A program made the translations under genes and the position numbers. Under the pieces are notes generated by a model. That model ran no database searches, was not told the origin of the DNA, and was given only the letters and a program-made list of their open reading frames with translations. This document shows, in pieces, positions 2,714 to 29,180 of a stretch of 64,000 nucleotides of DNA. The stretch is from an uncultured Gemmatimonadota bacterium (GTDB lineage: Bacteria; Gemmatimonadota; Gemmatimonadetes; Gemmatimonadales; Gemmatimonadaceae), in assembly GCA_902826615.1 (NCBI GenBank), contig CADEFN010000006.1, forward strand, positions 186,001 through 250,000, read 5' to 3'. Positions within the stretch are counted from its first letter, which is position 1. The number at the start of each line of letters is the position of its first letter.

Positions 2714-3802
2714 CTAACGCGGGACGGCCCTGCTGGCCATCAGCTGGTCGATGTACGGGCCCAGACGGGACGGTGGCGGGTCGAGCGCAGCAGCTGCCTT
2801 GAGGTAGGGCACGAGATCACCGCTCAACGGGAGCGCGAGCTGCTGGCCCCGGTGCAGGGTGTACAAGACACCCTGCTCGGCGATGAGAGCGGCTGGCGGG
2901 CCACCGTAGGCCGCCGAGAGCCCGACATCGATCATGATGACCTTGCCGGCGTACCGTGGCAGGATGGTGCCGGGCGTCACGGTGTGACCGATGACCATGT
3001 GATCCGCGCCGAGGCGGGTAAGCACGGTATCCACGTGACTGGAAAGAAGGGCTTCGTCTCCACTGGCAAGACCGCGAAACCAGAGGGGTCCCTCTGCATC
3101 CTCGGCGATGTTGCCTTCTGCTGGTGGTTTGGTGGGATCGAGCACACGCCGAACGCCTTCGTTGATGTCCCGCAGTGGCATGGCGGCGTACTGCGGGCCA
3201 ATTCCGCCGTGGAGGAAGACCATGTTGTTGATCTTCACCACGGCGTTGTTGCCGCGAATCCATGAGGCGTAGCGACCATTGCCTTCAAAGGCCAGCCGGT
3301 GTTCCACCCAGCCTAACGGGTGGTCGCTGAGCCACTGCTTCTTGTAGGCCGGATCGGCACGTCGCGCCGAGTCGGAGAGCACGGCAAAGGCCCGTTCCTG
3401 GAGGGTGGCCGAGTTGCCGCTCTTGAAGGCGGCGTATTCACCGGGAGCGACGTATCGCAGGTCGCCGAGCACGTTCATGACTTCGTGGTTCCCGATGAGG
3501 GCATGCACGCGCCCTCCGGCCTTTTTTGCCTGACCGGCGAGTTCCATGAGGAGTTCCATCACCCGGCGTGAATCAGGACCGCGATCAGGGACGTCACCCG
3601 TCTGAACGAGGTGAGTTTTCCCCCCGATCCAGCGGGCCTTGTCGTCGACCACCTTGGCCTGGCGGAGCACCAGCACAAACTGCTCGTAGTCGCCGTGCAC
3701 ATCACCAACCGCCACCACCCGCTCCACACCGGTAAATGTGTCCTGCGCCCGAACCAGGGCAGGAACGCAGACAAGCAGGGAGAGCAGTGTTCGAATTTGC
3801 AT
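2714..3802 (-). CDS. Exported calcineurin-like Ser/Thr metallophosphatase
   Basis: A 362-residue phosphatase with a signal peptide (hydrophobic LLSLLVCVPALV, cleavage near ARA-Q). Metal-binding signatures are in order: GDVHGDY, GDVPDRGPDS (the GDxxDRG block), GNHEVMN, then an HGG block (FLHGGIG) and a late GHT block (VIGHT). This resembles Shewanella-like PPP phosphatases, which hydrolyse phosphoserine, phosphothreonine or phosphotyrosine with two metal ions. The export signal places it in the periplasm. The gene ends 3 bases from the convergent membrane-protein gene, and its TAG stop lies inside a CGTTAGG heptamer. Substrate unknown. Confidence 0.85.
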   Translation of the reverse strand: MQIRTLLSLLVCVPALVRAQDTFTGVERVVAVGDVHGDYEQFVLVLRQAKVVDDKARWIGGKTHLVQTGDVPDRGPDSRRVMELLMELAGQAKKAGGRVHALIGNHEVMNVLGDLRYVAPGEYAAFKSGNSATLQERAFAVLSDSARRADPAYKKQWLSDHPLGWVEHRLAFEGNGRYASWIRGNNAVVKINNMVFLHGGIGPQYAAMPLRDINEGVRRVLDPTKPPAEGNIAEDAEGPLWFRGLASGDEALLSSHVDTVLTRLGADHMVIGHTVTPGTILPRYAGKVIMIDVGLSAAYGGPPAALIAEQGVLYTLHRGQQLALPLSGDLVPYLKAAAALDPPPSRLGPYIDQLMASRAVPR

Positions 3803-3899
3803 GGGGGCGAGGGGCAGGCCCGGGTGAGGGGCGGGTGTGTCTGGCCTGCGCGATGATACTACTCCTGCCGCCCCCGCGCGATCCTCTGTGCCCCTCTGG

Positions 3900-6608
3900 T
3901 CAGCCTCCCTGAAGTGCCCCCGCCGGGTTGACGCGGGCCGCCCGCAAGGCTGGAATCCATCCTGCGAGCAGGGCGGTCGCCGCCAGGATCAGGACGATGC
4001 CCACGAACGTGATCGGATCGGCCGGACTCACTTCGAACAACATGGAGCGGAGCACTCGCCCGAATGCCAGCGCTGCGACCACACCGATGGTCAGCCCACT
4101 ACCGGCCAGCCATGCGGTGTCGCGCATGATCAGCAGGAGCACCGACCGACGGGCCGCGCCTAACGCCATGCGAACGCCGATCTCCTGCGTGCGCTGGGCC
4201 ACGGCAAACGACATCACCCCGTAAATGCCCATCACGGCGAGGGTGAGGGCGACGGCGGCAAAGAGCCCGAGGACCACCGCACTGAACTGCGCCTGTCCGC
4301 GCGCGGCGGCCACCCGTGTGCTCATCGGGCGCACATCGTAGACGGGCATGGTGGGTGCCACGCGACGAATCGCCTCGCGCACGGTACCGGCGAGCGCCGA
4401 GGGATCGCCGGTGGTGCGCACAAAGATCATCATGCGAGGGATACGTGCCTGCGAGTACGAGATGTAGGCGTCGGGGCGCGCAGTGGAGTCGATGGTGCCG
4501 TATCGGACATCGCCCACAATGCCGATGATCTCCGCACCCTTGTCAAAGCCGCCCTGATACACAGCCACACGCTTGCCGATTGGGTCCTCGCCCGGGAAAA
4601 ATTGGCGCGCCGCCGCCTCGTTGATGAGGACGACACGTGGACCACCCAGCCGATCGTCGTCGGTGAAGAGCCGTCCCCGTTTGAGCGGAACACGCATGGT
4701 GCGGAACCAGTCCGGCGAGGCCCAGTGAACGCCTACCATGGCATTGCCGGCGGCGGTCTGCGGGCGATCGGCGAAGGTGAGGATTGTCCCGTTGCATCCG
4801 TTGTTGAGGGGAGGGCAGTCGCTCAGCCCGACGTGCTCCACGCCGGGGATGGCCGCGATGGTCTCCTGCACCTGTTCGTAAAAGCCGGGCATGGAGTCAG
4901 GAGCGAAGTTCCCCTCCGGGACGGTGAGCCTGAGAGTGAGCACATTGCGCGAGTCGAAGCCCGGGTCGACACCGAGGAGTCGGGAAAGACTTCGAATCAT
5001 CAGCCCGGAGGCAGTGAGCAGCACCACAGCCAGTGCAACCTCGGTGACTACGAGCGCACGACGGCTGGTATTGAGCCCTCGGCTCTGTCCCCCGCCGCGT
5101 GTGCCCGCCTTCAAGTCGGTGACGAGATCGCTGCGTGTGGCCCTCAGCGCAGGAAAGAGCCCGAACACCAGCCCCACGCCGAGTGTGACAACGAGGGTGA
5201 AGAACAGCGCACGGCTGTCGAGGAAGGTCTGCTCGAGCCCGACAGCGCCGATGCCTCCTTCGAGTCCCTGCACCCGCAGCACTTCACTCGGGTTGAGTCC
5301 GGCTATCAGCCTGACGCCTAACCAGGCAACACCCAGGCTGGCTATTCCACCGAGGACAGCAAGCGTGAGGCTTTCCGTGATGAGCAGGCGAACCAATCGG
5401 CCACGTCGCGCTCCGACGGCAAGTCGTACGGCAATCTCACGTCGTCGTGTGAGGGCCCGCGCCACGAGCAGGTTCGCAAGATTCACACAGGCGATAAGCA
5501 GTACGAGTCCCACGGCCCCAAAGAGCACCAGCAGGGATCGTCGGAGGGCAGGGGCGGCTCGAATGGTGTCGAGTGACCGTGCGGTGGCGCTCCACGCCTG
5601 TGGCCGCTCGCTGGTAGAGAGCAAGCCCTCCTTCATGGGAAAGGCGTCGTAAATCCGTGGACCAATCAGCTCTGCTTCGCGTGTTGCGGTTGTCGCCGCC
5701 ACTCCCTCGTTCAGACGTCCAACAAGGGAAAACTCCAGGGACCACTCCTGATTGAGATCGTCCGCGTTTCGGGAGGTCAGATTCAACAGGACCTCGGCGC
5801 GGCCGGAGAGACCTTGAAAGCCGGGTGGAAGTACTCCCGCCACTTCCCATGGCGTGTTGTCGATGCTGATGGAACGTCCGACAATGCCGGGGTCCGCGGC
5901 AAATCGCCGTCGCCAGAGGGCGTCGCTGATGAGGGCGACACGCGCGGCGCCCGGCGCGTCGCCGAGTGAGGTGGGGAGGTCACGCCCGATTGCGACGTTG
6001 ACGCCGAGTGTGGAGAGGTAGGGTGCGGTCACCTCTTCGACGGCCATCCGTTCGGGATCGTTGCCGGTCAGGATGGCCTGCGTGCTGGAGTACAACGCAA
6101 GCGAGCGAAAACTCCGCTGGTTCTCCTGGTAGAAGCGATACTTCGGGTATGACCAGGGCTGCGTTGCGTTGTTGTCGGTCGTTTGCACGACATCCATGAG
6201 ACGCCCGGGCTCCGGAAAGGGGAGCGCACGGAGCAGGAGTGCGTCGATGGCGGAATACATGGCGGTGTTGGCCCCAATGCCGAATGCGATCGTGAGAATG
6301 GCCACGAGCGTGAAACCGGGCTGCCGCCGGAGTCCGCGCAGCGCATAGCGCACATCGTCTGCGGCGTCGCGCAGCCATTCGCGTGTGGCCAGCTTCGATG
6401 TCTTGCGCACGGCCGAGTCCACTAACATGCCCTCACTCTTCGCAACGCGACGCATGGCTTCGTCGCGGGCTGCCTCTGGTGTCCAACCCCGAGCCACCAG
6501 CCAGCGAACACGCTCGTCGACATGGAAGGCGAGTTCCTCGTTCATATCGGCGCGGGCGGCCTCTGGTGTGCCTTTGCCGAGATCGAAGTGACGTTTGCCG
6601 TGGCTCAT
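3900..6608 (-). CDS. ADOP-family orphan permease (FtsX/MacB-like)
   Basis: A 902-residue permease of the acidobacterial duplicated orphan permease type. It has a soluble N-terminal prefix (residues 1-80, '[17 protein letters not shown]'), then a first transmembrane helix and MacB-like periplasmic core, an FtsX block of three helices, a second periplasmic core and a second FtsX block near the C-terminus (VRMALGAAR, then '[21 protein letters not shown]'). The start at 6608 is set by the 4-bp ATGA overlap with the upstream PadR gene. No ABC ATPase is adjacent, which separates it from true MacB. Family members are suspected efflux or lipoprotein-handling parts; the substrate is unknown. Probably controlled by the overlapping PadR protein. 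Confidence 0.88.
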
Positions 6609-7022: not shown

Positions 7023-7919
7023 TCAGGGCCAGAGGGCCCGGGTGGCCAGCTGACGGAACTCCGTGAGCAACTGTTGCGAGTGGAGGATGCCCGCGCGACC
7101 ACCACTCTCCAACTCAACGACGCGGAGCTCCGGCCAGTGACCCGCGACGAGATTAGTGCCATGCACGAAGGGATCGCCGAGGGAGGTGAGCGCCAGGGCG
7201 GGGGTTTGGCTCCGCTGCATCCGGTGGCCAGGCACCATCAGGGCGGGGAGGGACTGCAGCGCCGCGGCGAGCGCGCCGCGATTGTTCTGCGCCAGCAGTT
7301 CACTCGCTTGCCGGAGTGAGGTCGAGTCGGGCAGGTCGCCGTACCGCCAGGTGGCCAGCGCCCCCGCGCCGTCGCCGCTGCGCAATGCGTTGAGGAACGG
7401 TTCAGTCATCTGGGCAGCGTCGAGGGAATCGTGCCAAATGGCGGGTGCCACGAGTGTGAGGCTTGCAACCCGTGCGGGGTGGTCGAGCGCAAGGTTGATC
7501 GCGACAGCGCCGCCCAGCGAGTGGCCGATAACGTGGGCGGTCGGCTTACCCAACTGGTCGAGCAGGCCGACGACGTCGTCGACCCAATGGTGGCCATAAC
7601 CCGAGGCAGTGGCGGGCTTGCTGCTCTGGCCGAAGCCCCTGAGGTCAGGTACGATCACGCGAAAGTTGCGAGCGAGAGAATCAGCAAGAGGCGACCAGCT
7701 CTCAAGCCGCGCTCCGAAATCGTGCAGGAGCACGACCGGCTCGCCCTGGCCTATCTCGCGATAGTGGAGTGTGACGCCCCCTGAGGTGAAAAAGTGATCG
7801 TCAGCGGCGGCAAGGGCGGTTTGGGCCGAGTGCGCCGTTGGCGATAGGCCCCTGTATGCGGAGATCGCGGACGCTCCGAGCACAAAGGTCGAAGCGGCAA
7901 TGAGTAGTCGGGAATTCAT
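7023..7919 (-). CDS. Exported alpha/beta-fold hydrolase
   Basis: A 298-residue serine hydrolase. It has an N-terminal signal or anchor (SRLLIAASTFVLGASA), an oxyanion-loop sequence LLHDFGARLESW, the nucleophile elbow GHSLGG, a late acid (SLGDPF) and a C-terminal His in AGILHSQ. These form the usual Ser-Asp-His triad of epoxide-hydrolase or haloalkane-dehalogenase-like enzymes. The substrate cannot be read from sequence. I chose the ATG at 7919. A GTG at 7949 with an AAGG upstream is a real alternative and would add ten hydrophobic residues. Divergent from the gene at 8143. Confidence 0.78.
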   Translation of the reverse strand: MNSRLLIAASTFVLGASAISAYRGLSPTAHSAQTALAAADDHFFTSGGVTLHYREIGQGEPVVLLHDFGARLESWSPLADSLARNFRVIVPDLRGFGQSSKPATASGYGHHWVDDVVGLLDQLGKPTAHVIGHSLGGAVAINLALDHPARVASLTLVAPAIWHDSLDAAQMTEPFLNALRSGDGAGALATWRYGDLPDSTSLRQASELLAQNNRGALAAALQSLPALMVPGHRMQRSQTPALALTSLGDPFVHGTNLVAGHWPELRVVELESGGRAGILHSQQLLTEFRQLATRALWP

Positions 7920-8142
7920 GGGAAGGCAGAGCAGCGGGATACACAACACCCTGCCTTGTTATGCGCGTTCGGGGACTAACGCCCGACATATCCGGCCAAT
8001 CACCAGTCACTCATCGGCCTTCAGCGACCGTCCGGCGAAACGCCGAGTGTCGGAGCGGAATGGGGTCGACACCTTCAGCCAGGAACGACGCAGTGCTGTT
8101 CACGACTGGATCCATCCGCACACCGACCGAGGAGGACTCTCC

Positions 8143-9138
8143 ATGTTGCCCATGATGGCTGCTCTTGGATTTGCGACCCACTTGATGACCGTCCTCCCCG
8201 ACTCTGGTGAACTCCGGGGGGAGTCCCTGATGAATGCACTGCGCCATGGCGGCTACACCATCCTGCTGCGGCACGCCAGGACCGATCGCAGCCTGGTGAC
8301 CGGGATCGATACGGGCGTGGTGGAGCGAAGTGGGCAGCGGAACCTGAGCAGCGATGGCGTGCGCGACGCGAAGCTGATAGGGAGCGTGATCAGGAAGTAC
8401 GGGATACCGGTGGGTGAGATCCAATCAAGCCCCATGTATCGCACACGCGAGACAGCGGAGTTCGCCTTCGGCACACCAACCCTGACGCTTGACCTGCGGT
8501 CGCTCGAGCCAACCGAAGCACAGCGCGCCTTGATCATGGCGGCACCCAAACCCGGCACCAACCGCGCGCTCGTGACGCATCACTTTGTCATCGAGCGGCA
8601 TGTACCGGGGATTACTCCGGGGGCCATTGGGGAAAGCGAGGCGGCGGTGGTGCGGCTCAACCAGTCCGGCACACTCGAGCTGGCAGGGCGGATCCTGCTC
8701 CGCGACTGGGAAACGTTAGGTGGAGTGACTCCCACCCCGGCGGTGAACGCGGGGCACGTCGTTCCGGCCGTCGCCGCGCCAGCGTCCGGGGCGTCGTCCG
8801 TTGCGCTGCCCTTTACCACTGCCGGCCGCATAACGATGGCCTACCTGCAAGCGTTCAACAGTGGCGACACGGCGCAGATGCGGACCTTCCTGGAAGCCGC
8901 GATGGTGCCGAATCCCGCTCGCGCCATGGGTGAACGCCTCGCGAGTTATCAAACGCTCTTCGCCGACCTCGGCCCGCTGACCATCACCCAGGCAGGGGCC
9001 GGCACAGACGAGCAACTCGAGGCCCGGGCCTCGTCTCGCAAGGGAGAGGTTGTCATCACCGTGAAGGCCTCGGCGAGCCAGGGCGGCCGCGGGACGTCGA
9101 TCACCTTCGGCATGACGCAGGGCGGTCACCGCAAGTAG
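8143..9138 (+). CDS. Histidine-phosphatase-like protein with C-terminal NTF2-like domain
   Basis: A 331-residue protein beginning at an ATG with GAGGAGG about 8 bases upstream, which overrides longer in-frame starts. A signal peptide (MLPMMAALGFATHLM...) is likely. Residues about 25-200 show a histidine phosphatase pattern: LRHAR in place of the RHG motif, a downstream SPMYRTRETA block and a second His in THHFVIERH. After a linker of P, A and V, residues about 225-331 resemble the NTF2-like tail found on some serine hydrolases ('AYLQAFNSGD', 'MGERLASYQ'). The RHG glycine is alanine, so activity is uncertain. It is 8 bp from the next gene, which suggests co-transcription. Confidence 0.72.
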   Translation: MLPMMAALGFATHLMTVLPDSGELRGESLMNALRHGGYTILLRHARTDRSLVTGIDTGVVERSGQRNLSSDGVRDAKLIGSVIRKYGIPVGEIQSSPMYRTRETAEFAFGTPTLTLDLRSLEPTEAQRALIMAAPKPGTNRALVTHHFVIERHVPGITPGAIGESEAAVVRLNQSGTLELAGRILLRDWETLGGVTPTPAVNAGHVVPAVAAPASGASSVALPFTTAGRITMAYLQAFNSGDTAQMRTFLEAAMVPNPARAMGERLASYQTLFADLGPLTITQAGAGTDEQLEARASSRKGEVVITVKASASQGGRGTSITFGMTQGGHRK

Positions 9139-9146
9139 AGGCCGAC

Positions 9147-9965
9147 ATGACAAGCGCGTCCATTCATCAAGGCGCCGAGAGGCGCCCCATCGCGATCTGG
9201 AGTTCGGCACCCTATTGGGTCGTGCGATGGGGCGCGGCGCTCTGCTTCATTGGTCATGGGGCATTCGGCTTCATCACGAAAGCCGCCTGGCTTCCCTATT
9301 TCGCAGTGGCAGGTATTCCCGAGTCGTGGGCCTGGCGGCTCATGCCGCTGGTGGGCGCGGTGGACGTTCTCGCCGGGATGGCGGTGCTCTTTGCGCCCCG
9401 AAGGCTCCCGCTGGTGTACATGGCCTTCTGGGGGCTCTGGACGGCGTTGCTTCGTCCGCTGGCGGGGGAAAGCGTGTTCCAGACGCTGGAGCGGGCGGGC
9501 AACTACGGTGTGCCATTCGCGTTGCTGCTGCTCGCCGGCCTACCCCGAAGCTGGCGGGGACTGCTGGCTCCGGCCCCACCTGCGACGCCCGATGGCGCCG
9601 CCAGCTCGGCGTTCCGCCTAACGCTGCAGGCAAGCACCGTTCTCCTTCTTGCCGGGCATGGAGCCCTCGGGGTGCTGGCCAACTCCCTGCAGATCACGCT
9701 GTACGCTTCCATCGGGCTTTCGGCAGGCGCCGCGCAGCTGCTGGGCTGGTGCGAAATCGCGGTGGCGGCTCTGATCGCCGTTCGCCCAACCGTCTCGCTG
9801 CTGCTCTTCGTCGCCGTGTGGAAGGTGCTGACGGAGTCACTGTTTCTGGTCGCTGGACTGCCGCTTTGGGAGTTTGTTGAACGCGGAGGGAGTTACGCCG
9901 CCCCGGTGGCCTTGGCGTTCGCCATGATGACGACGCGCGATCGCGCCACCCTACGCCCTGGCTGA
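9147..9965 (+). CDS. Polytopic membrane protein with internal duplication (DoxX-like size)
   Basis: A 272-residue integral membrane protein with about eight predicted helices. It is an internal duplication. HGAFGF near residue 37 matches HGALGV near residue 172, and LERAGNYGVPFALLL near 116 matches VERGGSYAAPVALAF near 246. Each half therefore holds about four helices, as in DoxX/DUF417-like four-helix proteins. A cytoplasmic linker rich in A and P joins the halves at about residues 135-150. Function unknown. It follows the phosphatase-like gene by 8 bp. Confidence 0.7.
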   Translation: MTSASIHQGAERRPIAIWSSAPYWVVRWGAALCFIGHGAFGFITKAAWLPYFAVAGIPESWAWRLMPLVGAVDVLAGMAVLFAPRRLPLVYMAFWGLWTALLRPLAGESVFQTLERAGNYGVPFALLLLAGLPRSWRGLLAPAPPATPDGAASSAFRLTLQASTVLLLAGHGALGVLANSLQITLYASIGLSAGAAQLLGWCEIAVAALIAVRPTVSLLLFVAVWKVLTESLFLVAGLPLWEFVERGGSYAAPVALAFAMMTTRDRATLRPG

Positions 9966-19623: not shown

Positions 19624-20718
19624 ATGCCGTTCTCAGCAACTTCGTCGGCGCCTCTCTCGCAGTCACACGCCACGTTACAGGGTGGTCCTCGTTGCTCTCC
19701 GGTTGTTGACGGGGGAGAGCCGCTGCTTTTGCTCGGCGACGATCCCAGGCTGCTTCGCCTCCTGGAATTGGTGCGACGCGTGGCCGATACCGATGCCACC
19801 GTGCTCATCAATGGGGAGACTGGAACGGGCAAGGAGGTCGTCGCCCGGTTGCTCCATGGCGAGAGCCGTCGGCGCCGTGAGCCATTTCTCGCGGTGAATT
19901 GCGGGGCGATCCCCGAATCCCTTCAGGAAGCCGAAATGTTTGGTGCCACGCGTGGCGCCTTCACGGGGGCGGCGGCGTCGCGCGCCGGAGTGTTTGAGGC
20001 GGCAACGCGAGGCACGGTCTTTCTGGATGAAGTGGCGTCCATGGGCCACGCACTTCAGGTCGCGCTCCTTCGCGTCCTTCAGTCTGGCGAATTCACTCCC
20101 ATAGGATCGACGCAGTCGCGTGTGTCGGGGGCGCGTATCATCGCCGCCGCCAACGTTAACCTGCAGGCGCTCGTGGCATCGGGCCAGTTCCGATCCGACC
20201 TCTACTACCGGCTGAACGTCATCCAGCTCGATCTGCCGCCCCTGCGGGAGCGCCGCGGTGACATCGCCAAACTGGTTGCGCACTTTGCACAGACGTTCTG
20301 CGCGCGATACGGAAGGCCCCCGCTGACCTTCGCACCCGCGCTCCTGCATAGACTCTGCGCGCATGACTATCCCGGCAACGTGCGCGAGCTGCAGAACCTG
20401 GTGCATCGGCTTGTGCTGCTTGCCGGTTCGTCGTCACTCACGCTGAGCGATCTCCCTCACGATTTCCAGACCACCTCGCCGGCCCCGGTTCAGCCCGCGC
20501 GACTCTTCCGTCAGGCAAAGGCCTGTGTGGTTGAGGGATTCGAACGCGCATTTCTCTCGGCCGCCCTCGCGCGCAGTGGTGGCGTCATCGCTGACGCTGC
20601 ACGCGACACCGGACTCAGCGAGCGCGTCTTTCATGTGAAGGTGCGCAAGTACGCGCTTGCCACGCGTGCGCAGGAGCGCGCCGCACGCGACACTGAACCG
20701 AAGGTCACCCAGGCCTGA
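19624..20718 (+). CDS. Sigma-54 enhancer-binding protein without sensory domain (PspF-like)
   Basis: A 364-residue activator. It starts the sigma-54 AAA+ domain after only about 30 residues, so there is no receiver, GAF or PAS domain. Walker A GETGTGKE (64-71), the sigma-54 contact loop GAFTGA (111-116, intact), Walker B TVFLDE (131-136) and an arginine-finger region FRSDLYYRLN (189-198) are all present. A Fis-type helix-turn-helix occupies about 313-343. Such proteins hydrolyse ATP to open RpoN promoters and are usually held in check by a partner protein. The gene is followed at once by a terminator and by a candidate -24/-12 promoter for the next gene run, which it probably drives. Confidence 0.92.
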   Translation: MPFSATSSAPLSQSHATLQGGPRCSPVVDGGEPLLLLGDDPRLLRLLELVRRVADTDATVLINGETGTGKEVVARLLHGESRRRREPFLAVNCGAIPESLQEAEMFGATRGAFTGAAASRAGVFEAATRGTVFLDEVASMGHALQVALLRVLQSGEFTPIGSTQSRVSGARIIAAANVNLQALVASGQFRSDLYYRLNVIQLDLPPLRERRGDIAKLVAHFAQTFCARYGRPPLTFAPALLHRLCAHDYPGNVRELQNLVHRLVLLAGSSSLTLSDLPHDFQTTSPAPVQPARLFRQAKACVVEGFERAFLSAALARSGGVIADAARDTGLSERVFHVKVRKYALATRAQERAARDTEPKVTQA

Positions 20719-20828: not shown

Positions 20829-21278
20829 ATGGTACCACACTTGCCATGGTATCAGTCAATGATCTCAACGTTCACACCTCCCGCGCTGCATATCGGCCTC
20901 ATCGGTCCGGCTCTGGCCGCTGACCTGACGCTGCTTCATCGCCTTGGACAACGCCATGTGCTGACGCTTGCCGCCGCACCGCAGAACATCTGGGCGTGCG
21001 AGGTCATGCAATCGATCCAGGTGGTGGTGCTGGAGTCGGGATCGGTCCGCGGTGACGTGTCGCAAACGGTCGCGGCTATTCGCCAGCGGCATCCCCATCT
21101 GCAGGTGGTGCTGGTGAACGGTGGCATTGACCAACTGCATCTTGCCGACGCCTTTCGTGCGGGCGCGACGGATTACTTCGCGACCCCCTGGAATGTAGAC
21201 CTGCTCGCCGAGCGCATTGAGGTACTGGCCGCGCGCGCGACGCATGACACTGACGCTGTCTCAGGAGAGACCCAATGA
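20829..21278 (+). CDS. Receiver-like protein lacking phosphorylation residues
   Basis: A 149-residue protein with the alternating strand/helix order of a response-regulator receiver: HIGLIG, then VVVLES at strand 3, QVVLVNGG at strand 4 and ATDYFATPW at strand 5. The phosphoacceptor Asp is Glu (about residue 69), the conserved Lys of the K-P pair is Thr (about 119), and the acidic pair after strand 1 is missing. It therefore cannot be phosphorylated in the normal way; Glu may mimic the active state. It is the first gene after the sigma-54-type promoter and overlaps the next by 4 bp. Starts at 20859 or a TTG at 20799 are possible. It could be the partner that controls the activator at 19624. 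Confidence 0.65.
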   Translation: MVPHLPWYQSMISTFTPPALHIGLIGPALAADLTLLHRLGQRHVLTLAAAPQNIWACEVMQSIQVVVLESGSVRGDVSQTVAAIRQRHPHLQVVLVNGGIDQLHLADAFRAGATDYFATPWNVDLLAERIEVLAARATHDTDAVSGETQ

Positions 21279-23707
21279 CTGCTGGCGCATCATCCATGAA
21301 TGGCGAGGCTCTCGCATGGCGTCCCGCCTCCCCGTTTCCGAGCGATCCGGAGTTCACGCCGGTCGCCGAAGCATCGCGCGACGCTGTGATGTCGCTCGAA
21401 ACGCCGTTCCTCAACGAGTATTCCGCAGGCGCGTTCGCTTCTCCGCGCACACCGCAGGCGACAGCGTTCGCCGAGTTGTATGAGTCGCTGCGTGACGAGG
21501 AATTCGACACCGCGGTGGCACGCGTCGCCGACGAAGCCTCGGCCATCGCCGAATCGTTGAGCTACGAGGGTGAAAACAGTGGTGGCTCGCGTGAGCGTCA
21601 ACGACAGGCCGCTCAGGGGTACCTCGACCGGATCGCAACAAGCGCCGAAGCCGCGCTGCGCCGGATGGACGAAGAAACGTCGGCCAGGGATCTCGCGGCG
21701 CTCAGCGAATCGGCGCTGAACGAGTACCTCGATACCATCGGGCAGCACGAAAGCGGCGCCCCCTCGCCCGTTGCGGAGGAGTTTGTCAAGAAGTGGATCA
21801 AGAAGGCGAAGCAAGCTGTCACCGGCGCCGTGAAGCTGGCGAAACGCGGCATCAAGGCGGTGACCGGCATGCTGCCACACACCTGGATCCTGCGTCGGCT
21901 GATTGGTCTCGTGCGACCCTTCCTGCACCGAGTGCTGCGCTTTGCGCTCGACAAGGTTCCTGTCGCGCTGCAACCCATTGCGCGTCAGTTGGCCGCCAAG
22001 GTCCTCGGATCGGATGTCGTGAAGGCCGCCACCACGTCGCAGGAAGCGGCCGCGGTCGATCCACGGGCCGTGGCCACCGAGATGGACACGATGGTCGCAG
22101 GCTATGTGGTGCAGGGCGAGTCTTTCACGCCTGGCGTGAATCTCGAGTCAATGTCCGAGGACCAGGCGTCATCATCGAGTCGCGACGCGCTCCGTGAGCT
22201 CGATCAGGCACGCGCGCAGTTCATCGATCGATTCGGCCGTTTGCGTCAGGGTGAGGACCCGACGCCCGCTGTTGAGCAGTTTGTCCCCGCCGTGCTTGGC
22301 GTACTGCGTCTGGCGCGCAACATCATCGGGCGTCCGCGCATTGTCTCGTTCTTGTCGGGGCACCTGGCTCGGCTGGTGCAACCTCATATTGGCGAGGCGA
22401 ACGCCAAGAAGCTCGCGGGTGCGCTTGTCGACGCAGGTCTGCGGCTCGTTCAGCTTGAAGGCGGGCAGTCGGCCGTGGCCGCGACGGCCGAAACCGTCGC
22501 CAGCACACTCGAAGACACGGTCGCGCGTCTTGCCGAGTCATTGCCCACGGACGAATGGGAGAGCCCCGCGCTGCTCGAAGCCTACAGCCGCGAAGCGTTC
22601 GACCATGCGGTTGCCGCCAACTTCCCGGATGACACGGTTCGTGGTGAACTGCACGAAGCGCACGAGGTGAAAGGGGTCTGGCGGCGTGCGGCCGGTCGTC
22701 GCTTCAAGCGCTACACACGCACTCCTTCCGTCGTGCTGACCCCCCGCATGGCGCAGTCCATTCCTTCCTTCAAGGGAGTGCCGCTGTCGACCATCCTGCG
22801 TGATCGCTTTGGGATCACAGGTCCGGTACGCGTGAATGTGCACCTCTATGAGGCGATTCCAGGCACCACGGTCGGCGCGATCACCCGTGGCGATGCAGGG
22901 AACGGCGGCCCGGCTGGCATTCCTCCTGTTGCACCTGCGACCTCCGCTGGCTCCACTACCGGGACCGCTGATCAGGCGACGCCCTCGCAAGGAGCACCCG
23001 CGAGTGAATTCGACGTCCACCCCCTCACCGAGACCACTGCGGGTCTGCTGCTGCAGGAACCGGGACTCGGTCGCCGCGTCGATGAGGCGTACCTCGAAAC
23101 ACCGCACGCACTCGCCGTCGGGCAGCGCCTCTTTCGCCTGGAGTTCGAGGCCGGAGAAGCCGTCGCACGGGGTACGCAGGTGCGCCGCTTCCGCTCGCGT
23201 GTGAATGCAGCACAGGGCAGCGTGGATGTGCTGATAAACTTCAGTGAAGCCACCGCGCAGGAGATCGCCACCGCACTCCGTCGCAAGGCACCTGCGGGCG
23301 TCGTGCTCAACCTCATCCGTCGCGCCTTCGAGCCGCAGGCGCGCGCCGAGGCAGAAGGCCCCAGTGATGCGGTGCAGCTGGTCTCCGATGTCGCGGGTGA
23401 AGACTCCGAGAGTTTCACGCGTCGCTGGGTCCGGAGACTCGGCGGGTCGTTGCGACGAGCAGTCCGCGGCTCAGCCGTGCGTGCTCTCGCGTCACATATC
23501 GAACGCAACTACGCACAGGTTGCCACCGACTTCGATGCGGCGGCCAACGCGGACGCCGATGGGGTCACGATCCGGCTGACGATGCGGGGCCTCCCCTGGC
23601 TTGCGGCCATCGGCTCACGGTCTCTCGAAAGCGTCGACAGCGAAGCGTTGACGCCGGCCGCACCTGCCTCGCTCGACATCAAGATCGTCCCGGGTTACGC
23701 CAAATGA
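21275..23707 (+). CDS. Large protein of unknown function with cationic helical region
   Basis: An 810-residue protein that I cannot place in a named family. It has no signal peptide. The N-terminal 60 residues are disordered-like with a PFLNE motif (about 44-48). Residues 172-225 are strongly basic and amphipathic (KKWIKKAKQAV, GAVKLAKRGIKAV, ILRRLIGLVRPFLHRVLRF), resembling a membrane-active peptide. A second hydrophobic-basic helical region lies at about 335-395. A mixed domain spans 480-540, a linker rich in A, P, T and S spans about 545-580, and a C-terminal domain of strands and helices follows. It overlaps both neighbours by 4 bp (ATGA), so it is made in step with them. Confidence 0.6.
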   Translation: MTAGASSMNGEALAWRPASPFPSDPEFTPVAEASRDAVMSLETPFLNEYSAGAFASPRTPQATAFAELYESLRDEEFDTAVARVADEASAIAESLSYEGENSGGSRERQRQAAQGYLDRIATSAEAALRRMDEETSARDLAALSESALNEYLDTIGQHESGAPSPVAEEFVKKWIKKAKQAVTGAVKLAKRGIKAVTGMLPHTWILRRLIGLVRPFLHRVLRFALDKVPVALQPIARQLAAKVLGSDVVKAATTSQEAAAVDPRAVATEMDTMVAGYVVQGESFTPGVNLESMSEDQASSSSRDALRELDQARAQFIDRFGRLRQGEDPTPAVEQFVPAVLGVLRLARNIIGRPRIVSFLSGHLARLVQPHIGEANAKKLAGALVDAGLRLVQLEGGQSAVAATAETVASTLEDTVARLAESLPTDEWESPALLEAYSREAFDHAVAANFPDDTVRGELHEAHEVKGVWRRAAGRRFKRYTRTPSVVLTPRMAQSIPSFKGVPLSTILRDRFGITGPVRVNVHLYEAIPGTTVGAITRGDAGNGGPAGIPPVAPATSAGSTTGTADQATPSQGAPASEFDVHPLTETTAGLLLQEPGLGRRVDEAYLETPHALAVGQRLFRLEFEAGEAVARGTQVRRFRSRVNAAQGSVDVLINFSEATAQEIATALRRKAPAGVVLNLIRRAFEPQARAEAEGPSDAVQLVSDVAGEDSESFTRRWVRRLGGSLRRAVRGSAVRALASHIERNYAQVATDFDAAANADADGVTIRLTMRGLPWLAAIGSRSLESVDSEALTPAAPASLDIKIVPGYAK

Positions 23708-24990
23708 GTGTGATGTCGCATCCCGCGCCGGCAGCGCGAGCAGCTCTGATCGAGCTCTCGCGCCAGCTGGAGCACTGGCGACTGGCCGCCGAGCGTCTGG
23801 TGGTGCCGGAGAGCATCGCGTCTCCGCAGGCATGGCAATCGCTGGAGCATTACCTCGGCGTGTCTCTGCGCAGCACCATTGCCACGGCCGCGGACCAACT
23901 CCGTGGACGTATCGCCGCGCTCGCTGAACGGTTGCGTGATGCGCCGCCCGAGGCGTTGCCGCGGCTGCGACGCGACCTGCTTGCCGTGCGGCAGCTCTAT
24001 CTGCGCACCGAGACCACCGTCGACTTCTTTGCCGATGCGCTGGCGACCCGGTCCACGGAACCGATGGGATCGTGGCTGCGCGCGTGCGATCACCTCGCTA
24101 CGCGTGCGATGGCCGAGGTGTTGCGCCCGCTCGGTCATCCCGTGCCTGCCGCCCTCACCTTTGCCGACAAAGGCGCGGGTGCGGCGATCTGGAAGATGGG
24201 TTTGCGTCTGTGGGACGGGAGCACCCGCAACCCGGTTGCGGCCATCAAGATGACGCGGCACAACCTGCTGCGTCCAACTGCCGCATTGCACGAAGTGGGA
24301 CACCAGATCGCACACGTCGTGGGCTGGAACACCGAGCTGCGCAATGCGTTGCAGCGAGCGTTAGGCGCGCATGGCGCTGATGTCGCCGATACCTGGGCCG
24401 CATGGGCGACAGAGATTGCCGGTGATGCGTTTGCGTTTGTGTTCACGGGCTACGGAGCCGTGTCCGCGTTGCACGACGTCGTGGATGGTGACGCCTCGAG
24501 TGCCTTTCAGATGATTCCAGGCGATCCGCATCCGGTGGCGCACCTCCGGGTGATGCTCGGCATTGCCATGTGCCGACGCGCCTTTGGCAGCGGACGCTGG
24601 GACCGTCTCGCGGAGGCGTGGAACGCCGTACATCCACTGTCGTTCGCGGATCGTGAGACCCGGCAGCTCATCGCACGGTCAACCCCGCTGCTGCCCGCGA
24701 TCGTTGAGCTGGTGCTCTACCGGCCCTATCGCGCATTCGGGGGCAAGGCCCTCGTGCAGCTCGTGAATCCCGAGCGCGTCTCCCCGGCGTCGCTGGAGCA
24801 GTTGCGGCGAGACATGGGGAGTGCAGGCCATCACTCCCGCCACTGGATCTGGGACGAGGCCATTCGGGTGCTCGCGCTCACGTCATACCACACCACCTCG
24901 GACACCGCGCACCTCCGAGAAGGGGTGCAGCAGCAGGATGCCGTCATGCGGCGTGTAGGCTCACATCGCGCCGTCACACTTCAACACTGA
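23704..24990 (+). CDS. Predicted zinc metallopeptidase (HEVGH)
   Basis: A 428-residue protein. Residues 196-200 read HEVGH, the HExxH zinc site with the catalytic Glu, within 'TAALHEVGHQIAHVVG'. About 37 residues later EIAGD (237-241) offers the third ligand, as in gluzincin-type peptidases. The first 150 residues are mostly helical. No signal peptide or membrane segment is seen, so it is either cytoplasmic or exported by an unknown route. It overlaps the 810-residue protein gene by 4 bp. It could process other products of the run. I recognise the motif, not the subfamily. Confidence 0.65.
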   Translation: MSVMSHPAPAARAALIELSRQLEHWRLAAERLVVPESIASPQAWQSLEHYLGVSLRSTIATAADQLRGRIAALAERLRDAPPEALPRLRRDLLAVRQLYLRTETTVDFFADALATRSTEPMGSWLRACDHLATRAMAEVLRPLGHPVPAALTFADKGAGAAIWKMGLRLWDGSTRNPVAAIKMTRHNLLRPTAALHEVGHQIAHVVGWNTELRNALQRALGAHGADVADTWAAWATEIAGDAFAFVFTGYGAVSALHDVVDGDASSAFQMIPGDPHPVAHLRVMLGIAMCRRAFGSGRWDRLAEAWNAVHPLSFADRETRQLIARSTPLLPAIVELVLYRPYRAFGGKALVQLVNPERVSPASLEQLRRDMGSAGHHSRHWIWDEAIRVLALTSYHTTSDTAHLREGVQQQDAVMRRVGSHRAVTLQH

Positions 24991-25003: not shown

Positions 25004-25300
25004 ATGAGTACATCGGCCAGCACCACATCGCTTACCGTACCAACCAAGAGCCCGATTCCGCAGGCCTACACCGGCCTGCCCGATGCCCCGACGTTTGCCC
25101 GTTTGGCGTCGCGGCCCGACCGCGTCTTCCCGGATGCGCAGGCGTTTTTCAACGCGTGGCTTGACGCGCTTGTCGGCGACACCAGCGATGCCCGCGGGGT
25201 GCGCGTCGCCTTTGCTCCCATCGGGGCCAAACGCAAGGCCACGCGCCCGCGCGCAGCGGCAGCCCCGGCGGTCAATCCCCCTGGGACAAAAGCCAAGTAA
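25004..25300 (+). CDS. Small basic-tailed protein of unknown function
   Basis: A 98-residue protein with a good ribosome site (GAGAGG about 8 bases before ATG). Residues 15-65 are moderately conserved-looking with a helix (AQAFFNAWLDALVGD). The last 30 residues are a disordered basic tail (KRKATRPRAAAAPAV). It might be a chaperone, an adaptor or a targeting partner for its neighbours. No family recognised. Confidence 0.5.
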   Translation: MSTSASTTSLTVPTKSPIPQAYTGLPDAPTFARLASRPDRVFPDAQAFFNAWLDALVGDTSDARGVRVAFAPIGAKRKATRPRAAAAPAVNPPGTKAK

Positions 25301-25355: not shown

Positions 25356-26546
25356 ATGTTCGTTCAACTTGCGACCGCCATCACCCCGCTGTTTACCAAG
25401 CCGGAGGACGCCGCCGAGCTGGTACTCAGCGGCTTCAATGGCACTCAGCTGGCCGACTTCCTCGAGCAGTACTGGGGTGTAGCCGTATCCTCCATGCGGC
25501 CCGCGTATGAGGCCGATACCAACGTCGTTGCCACCGACCTGGCCGCCATGGCGCGCTTCAATCGCTTTGAGCCGGCCGTGCTCCTGCCACCGCTGCCGCT
25601 CCCGGGTCCGGGTGGCACCGTGGTCGGCCCCGAGTTGTTTCACCACCTCGCGTACGCGTATGTGGTGGAGAACACCAAGGCGGTCGAGATCTTTCGGCGG
25701 GTGCTGATCGAGATGGCGACCGGCGAACGACTGTCCCTCGGTAGTCCGGCCACACAACGCTGGGCGCAGCTCACCGAGGAACTGTTCTTCACGCATCCAC
25801 GTGGCTATTGCATTCGCGGGGTGACCAGTGACCTGCGTCCCCGGCACGACGCCGTTCGACGAAACGCGTACCAGCGCCTCCTCGGCCTCGACCTGAATCA
25901 CGGACAGGAGGATGGCTCGCCCGTGCCGTATCCGCGTGCCGAGATCGCCAACCGTGATTTTGTCCCCTTGTTCGAGGCGCTGCTGCGCGAGGTGTGGCTC
26001 GGTGTGAAGAATCGCGCCAATCTGGTGGGCGAGGACGCGACTGATGACAACGCGATCGACACCTTGTTGCGGCGCTTGCGTGAGCTGCTCCTGGCTCGCC
26101 GTCTGGGTGGGGCGCTCACCCGCGAAGAGTATGACGCCGTGGGCATGATGTCGTGGATTCACCTCACGCTGATGTTCAACACCGCCATCACTGCTGATTT
26201 GCGCGCCGACGCCGCAGGGCCAGCGGATCGGCTGCGCCTCATCGGTCAGAAGGTGGGGATCGCTCCACACTCGCGGAGCGATGCGTTCCTGCAGCTCGCA
26301 CAGCCCATGTCGATTCTCCTCCGTGCCATCGAGTTCAACGCCATCCCCTCGGCGGCGTCGCTCTATAACGGTCCCTACACTGCGGACATGCTGACCCTGA
26401 TCACGCAGTGGTCCATCGCGACGGGCCAGAATCTCAAGGACACCACGGTGCGGGTGTCGGCGACCGAAGTGGTCGCACGGAGTGCCGCAACCACGGGCAG
26501 CAACGGGAGCGGACCGTCGCGTGTGTCCGCCTTCATGACCAACTAA
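25356..26546 (+). CDS. Helical protein of unknown function
   Basis: A 396-residue, mostly alpha-helical protein with few charged clusters and a single Cys. There is no signal peptide. Features include 'LFHHLAYAYVVENTKAVEIFRRVLIEM', 'LLRRLRELLLARRLGGALTREEYDAVG' and a disordered C-terminal tail rich in S, T and G. I recognise no domain. It lies 55 bp after the 98-residue gene and 30 bp before the protease fusion, on the same strand, so it belongs to the same run. Confidence 0.5.
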   Translation: MFVQLATAITPLFTKPEDAAELVLSGFNGTQLADFLEQYWGVAVSSMRPAYEADTNVVATDLAAMARFNRFEPAVLLPPLPLPGPGGTVVGPELFHHLAYAYVVENTKAVEIFRRVLIEMATGERLSLGSPATQRWAQLTEELFFTHPRGYCIRGVTSDLRPRHDAVRRNAYQRLLGLDLNHGQEDGSPVPYPRAEIANRDFVPLFEALLREVWLGVKNRANLVGEDATDDNAIDTLLRRLRELLLARRLGGALTREEYDAVGMMSWIHLTLMFNTAITADLRADAAGPADRLRLIGQKVGIAPHSRSDAFLQLAQPMSILLRAIEFNAIPSAASLYNGPYTADMLTLITQWSIATGQNLKDTTVRVSATEVVARSAATTGSNGSGPSRVSAFMTN

Positions 26547-26576: not shown

Positions 26577-29180
26577 ATGTATGACCGGATGATCGAGGCG
26601 GACGGCGAGTACTCGCCCTTCGTACGGAACGAGGCGCCGCGATACGCGCCATTCTCGGAAGGGCTCACGCCACACCCTGACCAACTCGACGCAGAGGACG
26701 AGTCGTGGGGAGAAGCGGAGGGGGAAGGGGCTCATCCTGACTGCACGGCCAGCGGCATCGGCATCTTCGGTGCGGATGACCGCTTGCCGGTCGCCAACAC
26801 GCAGGCCATTCCCTATCGCTGGGTCTGCCAGCTCTTTCTCAGGCAGGAAGACTCGAATGGCAACATCACGAACTCCGGCGCGACTGGTGTTCTGGTGTCA
26901 CCGCGCCATGTCCTCACGGTCGCGCACGCGGTCAAGGGCGCCAAGGCACCGGACCGCAGGGGACAGGTCGCGACGTACAAGTCCACACAGATTCGCGTCT
27001 CCCCCGCGCGGGACGGAAGCGTGAGGCCGTTAGGCACGCACAACGTCATCAAGATGCAAGTCTCGCCCAAGTGGGATCAGAAGAAGATGCCGGCGAGTTA
27101 TGACTTTGCCCTGCTGACGCTCGACAAGAAGATCGGCGACGACACCTTCAGCAATCTCGGTGGGGCCAAGTTGTGCTATTGGGGTGCCCTCTCCTGTAAA
27201 CACAACACGGTGGCGTATCGCGTGCCGGCTGCGACGCTCAACGGTGCGACGGCCGAAACGGCTGGCTATCCCAAGGACAAGGGAAACGGCGAGCAGATGG
27301 TGCACGTATCCGGCAGGCTCGATGGCGCCTACGACAAGACGCGCACGATGTTCTACACAGGTGATGCCTGCCAGGGGCAGAGTGGATCGCCGGTGTGGGT
27401 CACGGTCAAGGGTGAGCGGCTGCTGGTGGGCCTCCTGGTCAAGGTCACGCCACATCGCGCCATCGTGCTGCGCCTCACGCGTGAGGTCTCCAGACAGCTG
27501 CGCGCCTGGATGGGTACGGAATCCGAAGCCTTTGTTGAGCCGAAGGTTGCTACCCCCAAAGCCAGTCAGCCAGAAAGTGAATGGGAGCAACTCGACCAGG
27601 AGTGGAACGACGTAGAGCAGGAGACTGAGTCAACGGAAGAAGAGTTCGTCAGCGCACCGTCAGTCACGAAATGCCGCTGCGGGGGCTGCCCCGCGCGCGA
27701 AGCCGCCGGGGCGATGGACGAATGGGAAGAGCCGGAGTGGGAAGAGCCGGCGTCAGAGGACGAACAACCGTTGATGGAGGGCGAGGAGGAGTACGAGTCC
27801 TTCGATGCCTTGTCCGAGGACGAAAGCGTCGCACTCGACCAGGGTGAGTTCGACCAGCAAGCAGAGCATGAGGAGGTTGTCACCCCATTCCACGGCAATG
27901 CCGCAATTCCGTCGAAGGACAACCCCTCTCTGGTACTCCGCGCGGCGTCAGGGGGCGAGGTCGGCGTCGAACGCCAGTCGCCACCAGCGGTGCCGACCAT
28001 TCGCCGCTTTGCTGCGCTCACTGACGTGGCCGTGGCACCCGACCCGGGTATCTACCTGGCATCAGGGGCCTACAACGAAAACCCAACACTCACCACCTGT
28101 CTCACAACAGCCCTTCGGGGAATCCGGGGAGCGGGTGGTGTTCAGGTCGCCCTGGTTGACCTGACCAAGGGTCTGGGCAGTCCCGAGTTTGCGGGCGTGC
28201 GCCACACGCAATCAGTGGGGCTTGCCAGCATCGCCAAGCTCCTGCCGATGTATGCCGCGTTTCAGCTGCGCGCGCAGTTGCGGCGGCTCAAGGCGGCCAC
28301 CGGAGCCGCAACAGCGGCGGATCTCATTCGTGAGGCGCACACACGCTGGCGTGCCACCCAATCACCGGCAGCTGGTACCGCTGTCGCGCCGATTACCGGA
28401 CACCTCGGGCAGAAGGGCGAACTCTTCACATGGAAGGGACAAGCCATCGACCTCTTCTCTGCCTCACGCGTGCCTAACCTCGCGCAGGTGATGGATGACA
28501 CCGCGGTCGTGGCTCTGCGAAGCCGACCTCGGAGTATGCTGGGCACGGCATCGACCTGTGACAGCGCCCACGCGCTGCGGTCATACGAGTACAAGGGCGA
28601 GCAGACGATCCGGGAGCTGTCCTTTGTGCAGCGGATGCAGATGATGGTCGCCATCTCGGACAATGTCGCGGCCATGACGTGCATTGATGACCTGGGCTTT
28701 GCCTACATCAACAGTGTCATGGTGCAGTCCGGCCTGTGGCACCCGGCGCGGGGAGGACTCTGGCTCCGTGGCAACTACCGGAAGGGCACCTGGTGGAGAG
28801 CAAGTCCACTCGGCGGTGGAGGACAAGGGACCGCGGGAGCATTGGTCGCCTTTCTCACGCTACTGGCACGCGATCGGCTAGTCGATGCCGCGTCGAGCGC
28901 TGCCATGCGGCAGATGTTGGTCAAGAACGACTATCCATCCGTCCTGACGCGGTCACCGGTCGGAGGCGCCCTCAGTAGGGCCGGACGAGCGTCCACGATC
29001 CACTCCAAGCTCGGACTGCTCAGCAATGCCGTGTACGACGCGGCATTGGTCCAGCGAACTGAGGCCGGAAAGTCCCTGCACTACGCCGTGGCAATCCTGA
29101 ATGCGCCGACGGAGGCGATCATCGGTGCCGTCGCGGTGGCCGTCGACAACTGCATCAGGCAGAACAACGGGATTCCGTGA
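26577..29180 (+). CDS. Trypsin-like protease fused to beta-lactamase/DD-peptidase-like domain
   Basis: An 867-residue two-enzyme fusion. Residues 1-60 are a disordered acidic leader with PFVRNE (14-19). About 75-315 is an S1 serine protease: His117 in LTVAHAV, Asp176 in SYDFALL, Ser269 in GQSGSP. A very acidic linker (335-435) carries a CxCxxC knuckle (366-371). About 480-860 has the three penicillin-recognising motifs: SIAK (551-554), SDN (694-696) and KLG (811-813, where KTG is usual), with about 80 extra residues between the first two. No signal peptide. It could cut protein and peptidoglycan after release. The domain pair is clear; the substrate is not. Confidence 0.8.
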   Translation: MYDRMIEADGEYSPFVRNEAPRYAPFSEGLTPHPDQLDAEDESWGEAEGEGAHPDCTASGIGIFGADDRLPVANTQAIPYRWVCQLFLRQEDSNGNITNSGATGVLVSPRHVLTVAHAVKGAKAPDRRGQVATYKSTQIRVSPARDGSVRPLGTHNVIKMQVSPKWDQKKMPASYDFALLTLDKKIGDDTFSNLGGAKLCYWGALSCKHNTVAYRVPAATLNGATAETAGYPKDKGNGEQMVHVSGRLDGAYDKTRTMFYTGDACQGQSGSPVWVTVKGERLLVGLLVKVTPHRAIVLRLTREVSRQLRAWMGTESEAFVEPKVATPKASQPESEWEQLDQEWNDVEQETESTEEEFVSAPSVTKCRCGGCPAREAAGAMDEWEEPEWEEPASEDEQPLMEGEEEYESFDALSEDESVALDQGEFDQQAEHEEVVTPFHGNAAIPSKDNPSLVLRAASGGEVGVERQSPPAVPTIRRFAALTDVAVAPDPGIYLASGAYNENPTLTTCLTTALRGIRGAGGVQVALVDLTKGLGSPEFAGVRHTQSVGLASIAKLLPMYAAFQLRAQLRRLKAATGAATAADLIREAHTRWRATQSPAAGTAVAPITGHLGQKGELFTWKGQAIDLFSASRVPNLAQVMDDTAVVALRSRPRSMLGTASTCDSAHALRSYEYKGEQTIRELSFVQRMQMMVAISDNVAAMTCIDDLGFAYINSVMVQSGLWHPARGGLWLRGNYRKGTWWRASPLGGGGQGTAGALVAFLTLLARDRLVDAASSAAMRQMLVKNDYPSVLTRSPVGGALSRAGRASTIHSKLGLLSNAVYDAALVQRTEAGKSLHYAVAILNAPTEAIIGAVAVAVDNCIRQNNGIP

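Follow-up and report, generated by a model that had tools for sequence, protein, structure and literature searches.

In V8-type enzymes, a particular His residue is important for Glu specificity, and the His-to-Thr mutant of BIGEP retains cleavage after Glu at a much slower rate (PMC5508998). PBP-A is a DD-carboxypeptidase/endopeptidase, which damages E. coli when it is made in the periplasm (PMC11189452). Protease-activated nuclease pairs are known from bacterial immunity, in Hachiman and AVAST (PMC12799240). The window, which means the whole 64,000-nucleotide stretch of soil-bacterium DNA analyzed here, encodes a predicted protein in which a trypsin-type protease and a PBP-like domain are present in one chain. 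It is an unusual combination of known parts. The features of this gene are as follows.

26577..29180, + strand: whole gene of the S1 protease/PBP-A-like fusion protein, 867 aa (ORF, Pfam, motifs)
26577..26666, + strand: N-terminal leader with an SPF tag at aa 13-15 (nt 26613-26621), without a hydrophobic signal segment
26742..27551, + strand: S1 (V8/glutamyl-endopeptidase-like) protease domain, aa 56-325, with His117, Asp176, and Ser269 (Pfam Trypsin/Trypsin_2, PDB 1p3c)
27534..27896, + strand: acidic linker, aa 320-440, with CxCxxC at aa 366-371 (27672-27689)
28017..29177, + strand: PBP-A/class-A-beta-lactamase-superfamily domain, aa 481-867 (Pfam Beta-lactamase2, PDB 4ewf and 2j7v)
28227..28238, + strand: SxxK motif, S551-I-A-K554
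28656..28664, + strand: SxN motif, S694-D-N696, whose Ser is not conserved in L019 (Ca. Solibacter) and G624 (Acidobacteriota)
29007..29015, + strand: KxG motif, K811-L-G813

Integrity and distribution of the fusion gene

The ORF starts with ATG, has a GGGAGG box about 10 nt 5' of it, and contains no internal stop. The G+C content by codon position follows the coding pattern across the S1 domain, the acidic linker, and the PBP-like domain. Pfam matches were observed to Trypsin (aa 82-284, 1.7e-9, 38.2 bits, gathering cut-off 20.6), Trypsin_2 (1e-6, 30.0 bits, gathering cut-off 27.6), and Beta-lactamase2 (aa 628-838, 4.7e-13, 49.4 bits, gathering cut-off 22). NCBIfam and PHROGs gave no significant match to the 867-aa protein. 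The earlier note had placed the S1 triad and the three C-terminal motifs in one chain, joined by a very acidic linker with a Cys knuckle. All these residues are present exactly at the positions given there, and the linker contains 39 D/E and five K/R in 121 residues, with C366-R-C-G-G-C371. The knuckle is missing from the linker of L019.

The S1-based alignment was scanned against 84,980 species genomes, which resulted in 79 loci. L019, a contig of a Ca. Solibacter metagenome-assembled genome, can be aligned over residues 72-867 and is 36% identical in its best segment. Its fusion gene (3162-6197) encodes 1011 aa with matches to Trypsin_2 and Beta-lactamase2 and an acidic linker. In L018, a Dormibacteraeota contig, the S1 part is 38% identical; the C-terminal part of the gene is not readable, because the contig ends within the gene, and the missing half was not found among 47 genomes around L018. 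The fusion did not turn up again in 298 genomes of its own phylum, in the 47 genomes around L018, or, L019 itself excepted, in 396 genomes of the phylum of L019. The fusion is rare, with one complete second case. Two S1-family proteins with long N-terminal extensions are also seen in other Gemmatimonadota (L002:832-2223 and L003:646-2223), beside a fliP-like flagellar gene on the opposite strand.

A frameshift joining two genes, which the earlier note had named as a fact that would overturn its reading, was not observed; the frame is intact, and the same two-domain order is present in another phylum. Because Ca. Solibacter has the same fusion in the same operon, and the frame is open with a coding pattern throughout, a frameshift or an assembly join of two genes can practically be dismissed. 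Full-length relatives were searched for in phages, plasmids, and viral contigs and none was found, so an origin of the fusion gene from a phage or a plasmid was dropped. Pfam holds the two domains only as separate models, there is no NCBIfam model for the pair, and neither the fusion nor the operon is described in the open-access literature searched, in agreement with the earlier note, which knew of no named family with this pair.

The S1 protease half and the acidic linker

The catalytic His, Asp, and Ser occur in the order characteristic of S1 proteases, with GxSG. The top PDB match of this half is 1p3c, a glutamyl endopeptidase, and the block GQSGSPVW is common to the S1 relatives. The His of Glu specificity (His213-type), which comes after the next strand, is kept in 79 of 86 readable relatives, as counted by reading the aligned tails. 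The 867-aa protein has Leu at this position, L018 and L019 have Ala, and the remaining exceptions are four Lokiarchaeal proteins. Since the specificity His is replaced by Leu or Ala, the substrate specificity has probably shifted in the fusion clade, although the loss is no proof of it because the BIGEP His-to-Thr variant still cut after Glu.

The long acidic linker is probably flexible. This raises a model in which the S1 half is mainly an activator, which would cut the linker or operon partners and thereby release or unmask the PBP-like half. In Hachiman and AVAST, proenzymes are activated through cleavage by trypsin-like proteases that are paired with, or fused to, effector enzymes (PMC12799240). 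The acidic linker and other Glu-rich proteins would be plausible substrates for the S1 half, whose family is V8-like, and the S1 domain has a weak match to LmuA. However, the specificity His is Leu here and Ala in L018/L019, in contrast to most readable relatives, and a gene for a metallo-beta-lactamase (MBL) nuclease is absent immediately upstream. The loss of the His makes cutting of Glu-rich linkers less likely, and a Glu-specific self-cleavage of the acidic linker is disfavored. The activator model is considered rather unlikely.

The PBP-like half

Five sequences, the 867-aa protein, L019, G624, L005, and L006, were used for the alignment and profile of the C-terminal half. There are 12 invariant columns, and as they include S551, K554, N696, K811, and G813, the motif set is not a chance occurrence. 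Against PDB, the profile matched 4ewf (8.4e-15, with most of the profile covered), PBP-A 2j7v (1.7e-13), and 4hes (3e-9). Together with the Pfam match, these place the C-terminal half in the serine beta-lactamase/PBP superfamily by sequence, as the earlier note had proposed; the other fact named there as overturning its reading, a C-terminal fold unlike serine beta-lactamases, was not observed either. AlphaFold2, with very shallow alignments of three and two sequences, gave mean pLDDT of 37.6 and 31.4; the PBP-like fold is thus assigned from sequence profiles only.

The motifs of the SxxK/SDN/KxG set are real, but the third one is KLG and not the canonical K[T/S]G. The set was also described as complete, which is correct for the 867-aa protein but not for its closest relatives, where the SDN triplet is VHN (Ca. 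Solibacter L019) or HHN (G624). The mechanism of the clade may be modified by this replacement of the SxN Ser. The PBP-like half might even be a pseudo-enzyme or a targeting domain, which binds D-Ala-D-Ala ends or similar structures and brings the protease to the wall. The lost Ser in these two relatives and the non-canonical KLG/KCG motif are consistent with such a role. It is nevertheless fairly improbable, as no variation is seen in the nucleophile Ser with its Lys, in the Asn of SxN, or in KxG, and the window protein has the full motif set.

In class A beta-lactamases, a Glu of the omega loop (Glu166-type) serves as the general base. No Glu is present in residues 696-775, where the omega-loop Glu is expected. 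Therefore, the C-terminal half appears to resemble PBP-A-type DD-peptidases more closely than beta-lactamases. A role in antibiotic resistance, with a beta-lactamase joined to the protease, would agree with the Beta-lactamase2 match and with PDB matches named beta-lactamase, but such an enzyme would have no Glu166-type general base, and PBP-A, which also has no such Glu, is a DD-peptidase. This function is disfavored and considered very improbable.

The operon and its exchangeable last slot

The fusion gene is preceded by the following genes.

19624..20718, + strand: sigma-54 activator (AAA and Fis-type HTH), probable regulator (Pfam Sigma54_activat, 2.7e-63)
21275..23707, + strand: 810-aa protein, an upstream member that is conserved and has two [ST]PF boxes
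23704..24990, + strand: 428-aa HExxH metallopeptidase-like protein
25004..25300, + strand: 98-aa small ORF, replaced by a gene for a 170-aa fn3 protein at this place in the Dormibacteraeota copy
25356..26546, + strand: 396-aa operon partner of no known family, with the same operon in other phyla

A receiver-like ORF is also present between the sigma-54 activator and the 810-aa gene. A sigma-54 promoter-like sequence, TGGTACCACACTTGC, is located between these two genes at 20830-20844 of the window, while at least one such match occurred in 23 of 100 shuffles. In L010 (1032) and L103 (10379), similar sites directly precede related clusters.

The operon, composed of the 810-aa, HExxH, 396-aa, and S1 genes, recurs in Gemmatimonadota, Acidobacteriota, Dormibacteraeota, and Actinomycetota. 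In the HExxH protein, H196, E197, H200, E237, and D241 are invariant in all eight homologues, which are from several phyla. In L018 and L019, homologues of the HExxH and 396-aa genes precede the S1 gene in the same order. Kribbella L021 and Nocardioides L024, which were found only via the S1 gene, have 810-like, HExxH-like (HETTH), and 396-like genes too.

The last slot of the operon is occupied by the S1/PBP-like fusion, a free PBP-like domain, an S1 protein followed by VanY or Amidase_2, or an unrelated 741-aa protein. In Kribbella, a short S1 gene is followed by a gene for a separate VanY protein (2.3e-14), and in Nocardioides by one for a separate Amidase_2 protein (1.6e-8); both proteins are SPF-tagged and have acidic stretches. 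The free-standing PBP-like domain of Acidobacteriota G624 is encoded behind the HExxH gene and another protein. The 741-aa protein, in Acidobacteriota G363 (L127:9656-11881), is encoded behind the 396-like gene and has two SPFL boxes and no recognized enzyme domain; its leader (about 55-56 aa) matches the leader of L018 at 38%. Conserved partners and a conserved leader are thus combined with an exchangeable enzyme domain, as in polymorphic effector operons.

Most slot proteins contain acidic stretches and carry an [ST]PF tag at the N-terminus. The tag is near the N-terminus in 8/8 cluster proteins (the S1 and wall-enzyme proteins of the four-gene operons, plus the 810-aa protein of the window) versus 6/713 other predicted proteins in the compared DNA, a comparison that overstates the surprise because the motif was chosen after seeing the sequences. 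Beyond the PF pair, the alignment of the tag is weak, and the tag was not seen on the free-standing PBP-like protein of G624. The match between the L018 and L127 leaders is independent of this choice. A module, LTNxxFxxRHPExxGR...L..EW..IR.T.VRP.L, is common to otherwise different effector proteins (L019:3162-6197, aa 130-180; L021:5786-7153; L024:5812-7956).

Wider clusters with the HExxH gene, in Gemmatimonadota and Proteobacteria, have other gene contents. A Rhizobium cluster encodes a protein with PG_binding_1, DUF2272, and Glucosaminidase, and an Ensifer cluster PG_binding_1 and GIY-YIG. Small acidic proteins at L010:1066-2109, L106:9943-10839, L120, and L125 form a family that corresponds to no Pfam family; MHDLDRTLNEFE... 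is followed in them by LLEVxNExELxxFLGxLI and by Gly-rich stretches. This family heads wider HExxH clusters with genes for BioF-like PLP, M20 dipeptidase, amidohydrolase-like, and sigma-54 activator proteins. On a Bradyrhizobium quebecense plasmid (L105), the HExxH homologue is beside S8 peptidase, patatin, phospholipase D, two CHAT, GMC oxidoreductase, and M4 genes.

Possible function

VanY is a family of D-Ala-D-Ala carboxypeptidases. The fusion is in the slot where its counterparts carry other wall-cutting enzymes; therefore, the fusion protein probably acts as an effector against the cell wall. The earlier note's idea that the protein could cut both protein and peptidoglycan is a reasonable one. 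The case for peptidoglycan as the target is strengthened by relatives with VanY or Amidase_2 in this slot, and the nonhomologous exchange with VanY may be regarded as the best contextual argument for a DD-peptidase role.

The protein would be a two-enzyme effector, with an S1 protease of the V8/glutamyl-endopeptidase branch at the N-terminus and, at the C-terminus, a DD-peptidase-like domain of the serine acyl-enzyme type whose nearest relatives are PBP-A and class-A-beta-lactamase-like proteins. A Sec-type signal is absent; the short N-terminal [ST]PF tag, which other operon products also have, is probably a mark by which the partners handle or release the protein. The effector would act outside the producer cell or inside the envelope of a target. 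There, the S1 half would cleave proteins of the envelope, and the PBP-like half would act on D-Ala-containing peptides of peptidoglycan by trimming or opening them, leading to wall damage. We infer that both halves are catalytic, that the C-terminal half acts on such peptides, and that the protein leaves the cell and harms other cells. That it is an effector of an undescribed polymorphic effector operon, with two activities that degrade the envelope, is, in our judgment, nearly an even call. More tentatively, the 810-aa/HExxH/396-aa set could be an undescribed system, in at least four phyla, that handles or exports SPF-tagged polymorphic effectors, with the fusion as one effector whose protease and DD-peptidase attack envelope proteins and peptidoglycan together.

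No Sec signal was identified, and neither secretion machinery nor an immunity gene was recognized by Pfam or PADLOC. As for cargo of an extracellular contractile injection system, no contractile injection cluster was found; the only trace in its own genome is an orphan tail sheath gene of the phage type (L013:14133-15269, at 426 kb of C1), with no other tail genes among the larger ORFs nearby, and this candidate is unsupported there.

CHAT and caspase-like genes are common in suicide systems, and more distant relatives in L105 and L128 are beside such genes. The effector could instead be self-directed, for envelope remodeling or programmed lysis of the producer rather than an attack on other cells. 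This would fit the sigma-54 activator adjoining the operon and the lack of a recognized immunity gene. We consider it unlikely, since exchanging the last slot while keeping a similar leader is more usual for weapons, and a self-directed protein has no known export partner either.

Each domain of the fusion is familiar, but their pairing in one chain falls under none of the Pfam and NCBIfam models seen. The setting weighs more than the pair: the operon is conserved, but its last slot is filled by unrelated peptidoglycan enzymes or by other proteins behind a common N-terminal tag. Should this prove to be an effector system that does without Sec signals, wall-degrading enzymes would have a new delivery route. 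The tag and the three partner genes make the idea testable in culturable Kribbella or Nocardioides.

Comparison with known systems

The locus resembles polymorphic effector/toxin systems in its conserved operon and leader and in the exchangeable enzyme slot, but differs from them in having no recognized delivery apparatus or immunity gene. With the nuclease-protease pairs of Hachiman, AVAST, and Lamassu (PMC12799240), it shares a trypsin-like protease joined to a second enzyme. In those pairs, however, the partner is an MBL-fold nuclease, of which the window operon has no gene, and the LmuA match concerns the S1 part only.

Related S1 domains are fused to other hydrolases in Polyangium, where two adjoining multi-enzyme proteins (L040:3222-6383 and 7536-9953) combine metallo-beta-lactamase, trypsin, and PG_binding_1, and trypsin and GH19, respectively. 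The former recalls the MBL nuclease-protease pairs (PMC12799240), but in a single chain. The Polyangium proteins differ from the fusion in their partner domains and in keeping the V8-type His, and no operon homologues were found nearby.

V8-type glutamyl endopeptidases (S1B, e.g., 1p3c) share the S1 triad and the GxSGSP motif and are the best PDB sequence match. In contrast to them, the fusion protein has Leu for the specificity His, an SPF tag without a secretion signal, and a second enzyme. PBP-A (Tll2115 of Thermosynechococcus elongatus, 2j7v) belongs to the same superfamily, with SxxK/SxN/KxG and no catalytic omega-loop Glu. It is a harmful DD-peptidase in the E. coli periplasm. PBP-A stands without a protease, and the domain of the fusion differs in its KLG motif and in a long insertion that follows the SxxK helix.
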